From assembly GCA_016932215.1 (NCBI GenBank), contig JAFGDH010000037.1, positions 1 to 59,428 on the forward strand: 59,428 bases of DNA, read 5' to 3'. This document shows, piece by piece, positions 26,072 to 59,428 of this stretch (its first letter is position 1; every line of letters starts with the position of its first letter). The notes below the pieces were generated by a model. That model was not told the DNA's origin, did not search any database, and saw nothing but the letters and a program-made list of their open reading frames with translations. The translations under genes and the position numbers were made by a program. The DNA comes from Candidatus Aenigmatarchaeota archaeon (GTDB lineage: Archaea; Aenigmatarchaeota; Aenigmatarchaeia; QMZP01; QMZT01).

Positions 26072-26114
26072 TATGACGACTTGTATTGATTGTGAAAAGT
26101 CGTCTTTCGAAACA
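26072..26114 (+). promoter_or_regulatory. 43-nt hairpin leader motif, copy 1 (lipoprotein gene)
   Basis: TATGAC, then stem GACGACTT (26075-26082) pairing with AAGTCGTC (26097-26104) over a 14-nt loop containing GATTG, then TTTCGAAACA. Same layout as copies at 40633-40675 and 42980-43022. AAATATATT centred near 26043 would start transcription at or just before the hairpin. It ends 10 bases before the ATG at 26125. Confidence 0.75.
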
Positions 26115-30339: not shown

Positions 30340-30462
30340 TGGGCTCGTGGGGATTCGAACCCCAGACCTCCGGCTTTCCCAGTTTGAGGTTAAAACTTAC
30401 CAGGCAAATGCGCCTGGCGGCCATATAAGACCGGCGCTCTAACCAAGCTGAGCTACGAGCCC
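30340..30462 (-). tRNA. tRNA-Ile (anticodon UAU) with 48-nt intron
   Basis: Cloverleaf on the minus strand: acceptor GGGCTCG/CGAGCCC, D stem GCTC/GAGC, anticodon stem CCGGT/GCCGG, T arm TGGGG-TTCGAAT-CCCCA and A73. The mature anticodon loop is C-U-UAU-A-A, with U36 and A37. The intron is 30376-30423, in the canonical position between 37 and 38. CUUA of the loop can pair with UGGG near the intron end, leaving three-base bulges at both cut sites (UA^U and AA^A), as in a bulge-helix-bulge. The intron holds a hairpin CCAGGC/GCCTGG. No CCA is encoded. A T-rich run (ATTTTTTCTTTTC) follows on the minus strand. Confidence 0.92.
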
Positions 30463-30473
30463 ATTATTCAAGA

Positions 30474-30496
30474 GACGCAGAACGAAGTTCTGCGTC
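30474..30496. other. Perfect 10-bp hairpin with 3-nt loop
   Basis: GACGCAGAAC and GTTCTGCGTC are separated by GAA. It lies 11 bases upstream of the tRNA 5' end on the minus strand. If tRNA transcription starts from GTATAAAAG (about 30554-30546, minus) this hairpin would be in the pre-tRNA leader. Confidence 0.5.
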
Positions 30497-30512
30497 ATGT
30501 GCTGTTTCGGGA

Positions 30513-30551
30513 GAAGCATACCTCGTATGCTTCATGCGCTTATTTCTTTTA
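30513..30551 (+). terminator. Hairpin with T-rich tail
   Basis: GAAGCATAC (30513-30521) pairs with GTATGCTTC (30525-30533) over CTC and is followed on the plus strand by CTTATTTCTTTT. The same tail follows the hairpin after the thermosome gene. It would stop plus-strand transcription ahead of the thermosome promoter. Confidence 0.45.
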
Positions 30552-40632: not shown

Positions 40633-40675
40633 TGTTTCGAAAGACAGCTTGATTCAGTCAGTCAAAGCTGTCATA
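40633..40675 (-). promoter_or_regulatory. 43-nt hairpin leader motif, copy 3 (L1 operon)
   Basis: Minus strand: TATGAC, stem GACAGCTT (40672-40665) with AAGCTGTC (40650-40643), a 14-nt loop containing GACTG, then TTTCGAAACA. It ends 31 bases before the L1 ATG. An upstream TTCGAAA (40687-40681) could also pair with the tail if transcribed. Confidence 0.75.
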
Positions 40676-42147: not shown

Positions 42148-42984
42148 ATGTTGTTTTCAAATGATCTGCTGCTGAGCAAATTCATAGACGTAGAAAAACC
42201 CATAACCGCCATTTCTTCGCATGATCTGATATTATTGAACGAGAAACAGAAAACAAGGGAAGTCATCGATTTAATTATAGACAAGGGTTTCAGGAGAATT
42301 CCGGTCGTTGATAAAAAAAATCATCTGAAAGGAATCGTTACTACGATGGACATACTCAATTTTCTTGGCGGTGGCGATAAATACAGTATTTTCTTGAAAC
42401 ACAGGAAAAGCTTGTCTTCCCCCGTATCGGATATTATGGAAAGGCATGTAATAACAATAGATAAAAAAACATCCATCCGGAAATCACTCGGCATTTTCAA
42501 GATGAAGGGAAAGGGACTTTATCCGGTCGTTGACGGAAACAGAGTCATCGGTTTGGTTTCTGAATGGGATATAATAAAAAAGCTCAAGCATGAAGTCGGC
42601 CTGAAAGTGAAGGACTTTATGGTAAAAAGACCGATAGTCACCGGAGGCAACTTCACGTCATTTGAAATTTCAAAGATACTGTGCAGGGGCGGATTTCGCA
42701 GGCTTCCTGTTATGGACAGGGGGGTTCTGATAGGAATAATAACGCCTTTTGATGTAATAAAATACCTGAATGGAAAAAACAAGGAAGCCAGCCTTTTGGA
42801 GGACAAGACCAGAGTGTGGGAAATAATGCAGAAGGATGTCGTTAAAATAAAACCCGAAGCAAACTTAATGGCAGTAATAAAATCAATGAAGATGAAAGGA
42901 ATAGGAGGTTTTCCGGTTATGGAAAACGAGGAATTGGTGGGAATAATAACAGAAAGAAACATAATAGATGCGTTAATGGTATGA
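42148..42984 (+). CDS. Four-CBS-domain protein
   Basis: Probable adenine-nucleotide sensor. The 278 residues are four CBS repeats in two Bateman pairs, each with the (G)-x-R-x-(I/L)-P-V-x-D strand and the G-I-(I/V) turn: FRRIPVVDKKNHLKGIVTTMDIL; LYPVVDGNRVIGLVSEWDII; FRRLPVMDRGVLIGIITPFDVI; and GGFPVMENEELVGIITERNII. No other domain is attached. ATATATAC about 27 bases before the ATG suggests a leaderless message. Its stop codon (42982-42984) lies inside the 43-nt hairpin motif that leads the next gene. Confidence 0.9.
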   Translation: MLFSNDLLLSKFIDVEKPITAISSHDLILLNEKQKTREVIDLIIDKGFRRIPVVDKKNHLKGIVTTMDILNFLGGGDKYSIFLKHRKSLSSPVSDIMERHVITIDKKTSIRKSLGIFKMKGKGLYPVVDGNRVIGLVSEWDIIKKLKHEVGLKVKDFMVKRPIVTGGNFTSFEISKILCRGGFRRLPVMDRGVLIGIITPFDVIKYLNGKNKEASLLEDKTRVWEIMQKDVVKIKPEANLMAVIKSMKMKGIGGFPVMENEELVGIITERNIIDALMV

Positions 42985-43022
42985 CGGCTTATACAGATTG
43001 GATAAAGCCGTCCCTCGAAATA
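42980..43022 (+). promoter_or_regulatory. 43-nt hairpin leader motif, copy 2 (TOPRIM/dnaG)
   Basis: TATGAC, stem GACGGCTT (42983-42990) with AAGCCGTC (43005-43012), a 14-nt loop containing GATTG, then CCTCGAAATA. Ends 20 bases before the ATG at 43043. Only a weak A/T box (about 42942-42949) stands upstream, inside the CBS gene. Confidence 0.75.
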
Positions 43023-43042: not shown

Positions 43043-43510
43043 ATGAATAAAAAAATAGACCCTGAAAAATTCAAAAAACTTATTCAGGAATTAAGCGAAA
43101 AAATTCTGCTTGTGGAAGGAAAAAAGGACGAAGAAGCTTTAAAAAGACTTGGTCTTAAAAATATTATTGCTATAAACGGCAAACCGCTTTATATTGTTGC
43201 GGAAGAACTGTCAGCAAAAAACCAGGAAATAGTAATACTTTCAGATTTCGATAAAGCAGGAAAGGAAATTAATTTGAAGCTTAAAAAACTGCTTCAGAGA
43301 TATAAAAAAACAACTAACGTGAGACTGAGGAAAGGCATCATGAATTTAGGTAAAAACAAGATCGAGGATCTTGGAAATTTGGCAAATTCGCAGGAATTGG
43401 AATATCCTGCATTTAAGGAGGATGATAATCATGTCAAAATTAGCACCAACTTCAATAAAATACGTAATAAAAGCACAGATAGATGCGAAGGGAGTAATAG
43501 AGAAACCTGA
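43043..43510 (+). CDS. Small TOPRIM-domain protein
   Basis: Small archaeal TOPRIM protein (RNase M5-related group); function unproven. The fold's acids are visible: KILLVEGKKDEEAL (the Glu) and VILSDFDKAGKEIN (DxD), with INGKPLY between. I start at ATG 43043; the frame can be extended to 42998 but that lies in the leader hairpin. The last 27 codons run out of frame over the beginning of dnaG (80-base overlap) and encode a Lys/Asn-rich tail without family similarity, so the tail may be an accident of a lost stop. The region is A+T richer than its neighbours. Confidence 0.8.
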   Translation: MNKKIDPEKFKKLIQELSEKILLVEGKKDEEALKRLGLKNIIAINGKPLYIVAEELSAKNQEIVILSDFDKAGKEINLKLKKLLQRYKKTTNVRLRKGIMNLGKNKIEDLGNLANSQELEYPAFKEDDNHVKISTNFNKIRNKSTDRCEGSNRET

Positions 43511-57875: not shown

Positions 57876-59428
57876 GTGCATGAAGGTTCCGGTTCCTGGT
57901 CGCTTATCCAGTTTTCAGGACCATCACCGTTTGATATTCTTTTTATGATTTTGTTTTCACCTGCCTGGATATCCCAACCCTCCATATAATTTTCCCATGA
58001 AACAAAATCTATTTTTTCATTTTCACTGTTTCTTAATGTTAATTCATCACCGGTGTTACTGAGGGATAAAGTAAGCCCGCCGGCTGACGGCGAGCAGTTG
58101 AACATTTCAAAAAAACCATAATCCTTTCTCGCAATTGTGAAGTAGGAACCGGAACCTAAAGACAAACCTTCAGGAAAACTCCAGTTTCCTGAGTTATCCG
58201 ATATTCTCCATCCTGCTAGATTAACAGTTTCGTTGAGCGGGTTGTAAATCTTTATCCATTCCCTTTCCGTTTCCTTGCCGGGCGTATCGTACATAACTTC
58301 GGCAAACATCAGATGAAGTGAAATATTATTACAGGTTCCATTAATCTCACAATCATTTTCACATAGAGTTGAATTTTCCCCCTCTTCACATATCCCGTTA
58401 CCGCAGCAGGGAACAACATCCTCGTAAGAACACGATTCTTCCGTGTAATTGTAGTAATCATTCGTGCATGCGTCGTTATCGTCACAACCCGGACAATCCG
58501 GTTCCCCCTGTTCCCCCTCTTCGCATAAACCGTTACCTTCGCACGGAATTATCGTTTCGCAAAGACATTCGCTGTTGCTAAGTTCTTCACACGTTCCGCA
58601 AGTTATGTTGCACAAGAAACATTCCCTGCTCTCTTCAGGTTTGTTTTTTTCGCTGCCGCAGGAATTCAGATCAGTACATTCCCTTTCCTCTGTACCATCT
58701 GTGCAATCCCCCCACCCTGAACACACCCACGATTCTTCACACTGGCCTTTTTCGTGGCCTGTACAATCCGGTTCGCAATCCGTGCAGTCGTCCCAGATCA
58801 CCGAGTTTTTACATATCGCAGTGTAGCCGTCATCACATGTTTTTTCCGAATCTCTGCATACTATTTCGTCACACCCTGCCGGGGTCGCGGTTTTATTGTT
58901 CATCCAGTCGGATGACGAATCGCTGTCAGTGAAACCATTACGCTTGATCGTTTTACTTTCATCAGCGAATATATCCCAACCATCGGCAAAGCCTTCCCAG
59001 GAGACAGTATCTATTACTTTCCCCCCTCTTCCCTCAAGGACGAGAATGTCCCCATCATTATTCATCGTTCTTGAAAAACCGGAGATGTCGGGGTAACATC
59101 CGTACTCTTCATAAAATCCGCCCGCGTCTCTTGCCACGACGATGTAATCTTCCGGATCCAGCAGAGTTCCTTCAGGGAATTCCCACCTGTAATCGTTATC
59201 AGAAACGGAATACCCGGTGAGGTCGAAAATAACGTCTGCCGGATTGTATATTTCAAACCACTCCTTTTTGTTCTCCGGTTTTTCTGAGTCATACAATACC
59301 TCTGTGAAAATAATGGAAGCGGGGCAGTCATCGGGGCAGGATTCAAGTATCTCCTCGGCTTCGCATATACCATTACCGCAACAACTGATAACTTTTTCAC
59401 ACAAGCACTTTTCCTCGTCAAAGATTTC
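57872..59428 (-). CDS. Large Cys-rich surface protein with lamin-tail domains, 5' part outside window
   Basis: The frame is open through the right edge (519 codons seen), so the N-terminus and any signal peptide are missing. Two lamin-tail (LTD) domains are visible, each with FTEVLYD or FAEVMYD, EW-x-(E/K)-IYNP, DLTGYSVSDN or NLAGWRISDN, WxFPEG and VSWE. Between and around them are Cys-rich repeats: CCGNGICE three-fold in variants (also CEGNGLCEEGE), CxxCxxTC blocks, and SGWGDCTDGTEERECTD resembling a thrombospondin type 1 repeat. Very acidic and Cys-rich, so extracellular and disulfide-linked. Probably an adhesion or surface-structure protein; function is not shown. Confidence 0.85.
   Translation of the reverse strand, partial: EIFDEEKCLCEKVISCCGNGICEAEEILESCPDDCPASIIFTEVLYDSEKPENKKEWFEIYNPADVIFDLTGYSVSDNDYRWEFPEGTLLDPEDYIVVARDAGGFYEEYGCYPDISGFSRTMNNDGDILVLEGRGGKVIDTVSWEGFADGWDIFADESKTIKRNGFTDSDSSSDWMNNKTATPAGCDEIVCRDSEKTCDDGYTAICKNSVIWDDCTDCEPDCTGHEKGQCEESWVCSGWGDCTDGTEERECTDLNSCGSEKNKPEESRECFLCNITCGTCEELSNSECLCETIIPCEGNGLCEEGEQGEPDCPGCDDNDACTNDYYNYTEESCSYEDVVPCCGNGICEEGENSTLCENDCEINGTCNNISLHLMFAEVMYDTPGKETEREWIKIYNPLNETVNLAGWRISDNSGNWSFPEGLSLGSGSYFTIARKDYGFFEMFNCSPSAGGLTLSLSNTGDELTLRNSENEKIDFVSWENYMEGWDIQAGENKIIKRISNGDGPENWISDQEPEPSCT

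Follow-up and report, generated by a model that had tools for sequence, protein, structure and literature searches.

Short hairpin units that precede genes in a Candidatus Aenigmatarchaeota genome belong to the same family as the bulge-helix-bulge (BHB) introns that interrupt tRNA and rRNA genes in its relatives. We consider it probable, with a likelihood of roughly two in three, that these hairpins are dispersed, mobile copies of the BHB-intron family which survive in transcribed leaders. The starting point was a contig of 59,428 nt (the window, meaning the whole stretch of DNA that was analysed), for which an earlier note had described three copies of a hairpin and proposed a leader RNA or a binding site for one regulator. 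A covarying leader hairpin on the sense strand, with many further copies as the note had anticipated, was borne out by the analysis, but a one-regulon switch or operator is not the best account, because the targets comprise tRNAs as well as unrelated mRNAs, copies occur as BHB introns in relatives, and the occupancy of leaders is sporadic.

The three 43-nt window copies (Table 1) were recovered at the positions and on the strands described before by an exact pattern match, and the pattern gave 0 matches in 100 shuffles. All have an 8-bp stem (GAC-NN-CTT/AAG-NN-GTC), a 14-nt loop with GAYTG and a tail YYTCGAAAYA. At stem positions 4 and 5 the three copies carry GA/TC, GG/CC and AG/CT, and the stem was recovered by single-strand folding of each copy with z-scores of −2.7, −1.7 and −2.9. 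The distances to the ATG measured 10, 20 and 31 nt on the coding strand, in agreement with the range of 10-31 bases given earlier. Among the window copies an upstream TTCGAAA, which matches the 3′ tail of a unit, is present only at copy 3. The assignment of the downstream genes held in part. Copy 3 indeed precedes the first gene of the L1-L10-L12 ribosomal stalk operon, but the gene after copy 2 encodes a 155-aa Toprim protein and not full DnaG. The gene after copy 1, proposed to encode a lipoprotein, specifies a protein of 325 aa whose N-terminus resembles a lipobox; a Pfam search with this protein gave no match.

Table 1. Hairpin units and the associated tRNA gene in the window.
Feature	Position	Strand	Context	Score
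Long-form hairpin unit, copy 1	26072..26114	+	5′ leader of putative lipoprotein gene, ATG 26125	57.5 bits (covariance model)
Long-form hairpin unit, copy 2	42980..43022	+	Overlaps stop of CBS-domain gene; Toprim gene ATG at 43043, 20 nt on	57.9 bits (covariance model)
Long-form hairpin unit, copy 3	40633..40675	−	L1-L10-L12 operon leader	60.1 bits (covariance model)
Short-form unit AGCGCATGA-stem-loop-CCGAAACA, 38 nt	30503..30540	−	First of tandem pair before tRNA gene	
Short-form unit GCACATGACGCAGAAC...GTTCTGCGTCTCTTGAATAAT, 40 nt	30463..30502	−	Second of pair, ends at tRNA 5′ end	
Intron-containing tRNA gene	30340..30462	−	Both short-form units directly before it	58.6 bits (Rfam RF00005)

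In line with the earlier note, which knew of no described archaeal leader RNA of this form, no Rfam family was found to fit the hairpin. A search with Rfam 15 at the gathering threshold returned tRNA and rRNA models only, none of them over the window copies, and a known RNA family was rejected on this ground. A kink-turn or box C/D element was rejected by inspection since the required GA pairs are absent. Separately, ARAGORN called a tRNA-Ser at window positions 58127-58219 (minus strand), within a long open frame and without Rfam support; this call is probably false.

To determine the extent of the family a covariance model was built from 12 sequences, all of them copies of the source genome (1.14 Mb). 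This model gave 88 matches in the source genome at E ≤ 1 and 51 at E ≤ 0.001, and the family size is about 50-60 copies, with at least 50. The exact pattern was found at six further places in this genome. Tandem arrangement is common, with a period of ca. 47 nt. In 68 aligned genomic matches 97.2% of the stem cells were paired as compared to 86.6% in shuffles, figures which lean toward structure and may overstate pairing because the matches were fitted to the model. Changes on both sides were present at 5 stem pairs of this alignment, and the covariation score was 0.374, whereas slid controls did not exceed 0.078, which upholds the covariation that had been claimed from three copies. Among relatives 13 of 60 genomes had covariance-model matches (for example 34 in G019 and 20 in G015); all belong to the same order, including other families of that order, and no match was obtained in 20 genomes from other orders of the class. 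Every named contig that contains the exact pattern comes from a Candidatus Aenigmatarchaeota MAG. A viral carrier was sought by comparing two patterns with 2.9 million viral contigs, and no match was found. Two further observations were made in relatives. Genome G014 (L168-L173) carries TATGACGACTTGAACAGAATGAACARGTCGTCYTTAA six times, almost unchanged, in repetitive surroundings that look partly coding; this seems to be a separate repeat family. In G036 (L216) the hairpin upstream of rpl37ae carries the same loop, GGAUAGAUUGAAAA, on another stem, CCCGCAU/AUGCGGG.

The genomic context of the best 60 copies in the source genome was derived with a simple gene caller. About 34 of these copies lie in mRNA leaders (29 as called, plus 3 flagged as in-gene and 2 otherwise labelled, 42980 and L084:57, assigned by eye). 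Another 14 of the 60 are located in tRNA leaders, as marked from the sequence, and a few are positioned 3′ of tRNAs or at gene ends. Although 85% of the examined sequence is coding, none of the best 60 copies is truly within a coding sequence. Most are on the sense strand, 2-60 nt before an mRNA start or immediately ahead of a tRNA gene. Both flanking genes were on the strand of the copy in 24 cases and both were opposed in 6. The downstream genes include those for L1, L37ae, RpoN, deoxyhypusine synthase and AIR carboxylase. TATA-like boxes were present upstream of 36 of the 60 copies against a background of 12%, with a loose peak 21-45 nt upstream of the stem. A fixed promoter spacing was rejected since the distance from the TATA-like box to the stem varies. 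For the copies before tRNAs, a substitute tRNA-end signal that compensates for RNase P loss was rejected, as RNase P RNA was found in the source genome. The sense orientation and the position near predicted transcript starts suggest insertion through RNA.

The proximity to promoters, together with the near-palindromic form of the unit, would also fit a DNA operator, a palindrome bound in double-stranded form by a transcription factor. This is very improbable in view of the compensating stem changes and the position downstream of the predicted TATA box, and because relatives also carry the unit within the regions that encode mature tRNA and rRNA.

The latter copies connect the leader hairpins to introns. 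The model derived from the source genome alone matched copies in tRNA T-loops and in rRNA of relatives. In nine T-loop copies of G019 a 4-bp H helix is flanked by two 3-nt bulges, and the 5-bp T-stem serves as outer helix; their shuffle fractions were 0-0.013, and inspection indicated that removal of the intron restores 7-nt loops. The T-loop copy at L138:2874, for example, reads AGGGG-UUCG-AAA-AGCGUAU-[hairpin]-CCU-CGAA-UCU-CCCCU. At rRNA sites, of which only those checked by the first BHB method were used (a stricter inner-helix rule failed), the 16S copy L136:3482 of G019 pairs GGUA with UACC and has AGA/AGA bulges; its predicted splicing gives GGUAAGACUGGUGCCAGCC, in agreement with GGUAAGACAGGUGCCAGCC in the intron-free 16S rRNA gene of G015. 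A copy is located at the same 16S site in G004, which belongs to another family. In the 23S copy L136:7812 of G019 CGAG pairs with CUCG, with a weak shuffle value of its own (0.29), and removal would restore GACGAGAAGACCCC, which we take to be normal 23S rRNA sequence. The 16S and 23S rRNA genes of G019 (L136) and G015 (L160) further differ by many insertions of 31-67 nt, some with other hairpins.

The 30-nt core, with consensus GACGGCUUGGAUAgAUUGgAUcAAGCCGUC in G019, hardly differs between leaders and the introns of T-loops and rRNA. The ends AAGCG-UAU and UYU-CGAA are likewise common to leaders and T-loop introns, whereas those of rRNA introns are adapted to the individual site. T-loop introns are 45-48 nt long in G019 and G034 (long form) versus 35-40 nt in the source genome (short form). 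The long form equals the tandem period of the leader units and the short form equals the 38- and 40-nt units in the window, which argues for kinship. Of the tandem pair before the window tRNA gene, the unit at 30503-30540 matches T-loop introns of the source genome in plan and in length (38 nt); the loop is not conserved in the two units (30463-30540, minus strand). A T-loop intron common to G019 and G034 shows a compensating change, GAAGGC/GCCTTC versus GATGGC/GGCCATC. The kinship may be read from leader to intron or from intron to leader alike.

Splicing endonuclease (PF01974) was detected in all 9 genomes tested, in the source genome as a 409-aa open frame. This frame (C36:7408-7662) has the form of a fused enzyme. 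Genomes G019, G034 and G036 each have two endonuclease types, one of 184-234 aa and one of roughly 400 aa.

The leader copies of the source genome do not have the geometry of splice substrates. Only 2 of 60 gave a BHB at a shuffle fraction ≤0.01, which is about the chance level. For the three window copies, two gave no BHB and the third a weak one (0.033). Leader copies keep the CGAA of the 3′ strand, but most lack its upstream partner UUCG. As their geometry is no better than in shuffles, BHB splicing was rejected for the leader copies. The T-loop introns of the source genome are of the short form, and no long-form intron was found in it to match its long-form leader units.

We propose that the element consists of a 30-nt hairpin core within a 47-nt unit, A-AGCG-UAU-[core]-YYU-CGAA-NN. 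When inserted after the exon sequence UUCG of a tRNA T-loop, its CGAA would pair with UUCG to give a BHB motif, from which the splicing endonuclease could excise the unit to leave a normal tRNA. A core with site-adapted ends would allow the same excision in 16S and 23S rRNA. The unit would also be copied, singly or in tandem, into mRNA 5′ leaders, tRNA leaders and some trailers. A leader unit would not be a canonical splice substrate, yet a position after the transcription start and ahead of the ribosome-binding site or tRNA would let it be tolerated. The element would thus be actively mobile, insert at the RNA level, and survive either by splicing or by its neutral position in a leader. A more far-reaching version, which we put forward tentatively, is that the family corresponds in archaea to the introners, with a 47-nt RNA unit spreading via RNA to transcript 5′ ends and to tRNA and rRNA genes; in the latter, removal by the tRNA splicing endonuclease would hide it.

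Orthologous leaders of rpoN, rpl37ae, secY and rpl4 were compared among relatives. The secY leader of G019 contains a 49-nt insert; G034, a genome of the same genus, has an empty site here whose flanks match on either side. The same was found for a 52-nt insert in the leader of tRNA-Asp. An insert of ca. 50 nt in the rpl4 leader of G019 is likewise absent from G034, with matching flanks and a less clean junction. The empty sites may reflect gain in G019 or loss in G034. The ends of the inserts do not exactly coincide with predicted intron ends, and the empty sites of secY and tRNA-Asp showed no evident target duplication. Across the 14 genomes searched the occupancy of the rpoN, rpl37ae and secY leaders is sporadic.

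The missing target duplication at these two sites, along with the stem covariation and the tandem arrays, could be explained by REP-like transposition of the hairpin at the DNA level, with single-stranded DNA as the substrate of an IS200/IS605-type transposase. We regard this as quite improbable, since almost all copies are on the sense strand, with the excess of same-strand over opposite-strand neighbourhoods given above, and since the unit ends are intron ends and not transposase feet.

Another explanation, in our opinion unlikely but the best of the alternatives, is that the leader copies are functional 5′-UTR elements in processing, stability or translation control, and that one factor binds both these and the intron hairpins; the requirement of this factor for the hairpin would then explain why introns and leaders have it in common. 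The tight positioning just before ribosome-binding sites and tRNA 5′ ends would be expected for such elements, as would the 97% pairing with covariation in the stems of the source genome, and the enrichment of TATA-like boxes places many units close to where transcripts begin. Conservation of core and loop across families extends to the introns, in which a loop would be expected to vary freely, and the leaders of SepF and of one tRNA are occupied in both G019 and G034. This explanation is at odds with the variation of occupied genes between genomes, with the empty orthologous sites within one genus and with targets that have no common function and include tRNAs. Furthermore, two leader stems common to G019 and G034 show unpaired changes between the genomes, although this sample is small. 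We therefore prefer dispersal of a BHB-intron family, and since placement is tight, the stems of the source genome are well kept and the loop is conserved, some of the leader copies may have a regulatory role.

It is not settled how archaea acquire introns in tRNA and rRNA genes. As one family occurs both as introns and as free leader units, with occupied and empty sites in a single genus, gain becomes testable by sequencing of close genomes and RNA. The family also calls for caution: a leader RNA that is multi-copy, covarying and gene-proximal need not be a regulator. Transposition of tRNA introns is known in Thermoproteales (Fujishima et al. 2010, as cited in PMC4033280), intron gain via mobile elements has been proposed (PMC3293823), splicing endonucleases of broad specificity have been described (PMC12397907), and introns are known in an archaeal protein gene (PMC2738675) and in 16S rRNA genes of Thermoproteales (PMC4496867). 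When the literature was searched for BHB units in leaders of archaeal mRNAs or in DPANN rRNA, with subscription papers mostly outside the scope, nothing closer came up, and we found no earlier description of the spread of a BHB-intron hairpin into mRNA and tRNA leaders.

The tRNA introns of Thermoproteales, as far as the citing paper portrays them, are similar in that related introns occur in many tRNAs, at non-canonical positions, with an hBHBh′ motif and an endonuclease for their removal. The family described here differs from that account by its occurrence in a DPANN order and by a single core that is found in T-loop, 16S and 23S introns as well as in mRNA and tRNA leaders. The 16S introns of Thermoproteales (PMC4496867) are also located within archaeal 16S rRNA genes, whereas those found here are ca. 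45 nt long and have a hairpin core in common with tRNA introns and leaders. Eukaryotic introners likewise occur as many similar dispersed copies per genome that are present or absent between close relatives, and near-full units were present or absent at orthologous sites of G019 and G034. The likeness is one of resemblance only, since the splicing machinery is different and many copies here are unspliceable in leaders. REP and other palindromic intergenic repeats are also short transcribed palindromes with tandem arrays and stem covariation; in the present family, in contrast, sense-strand 5′ leaders dominate and further copies are BHB introns in RNA genes.
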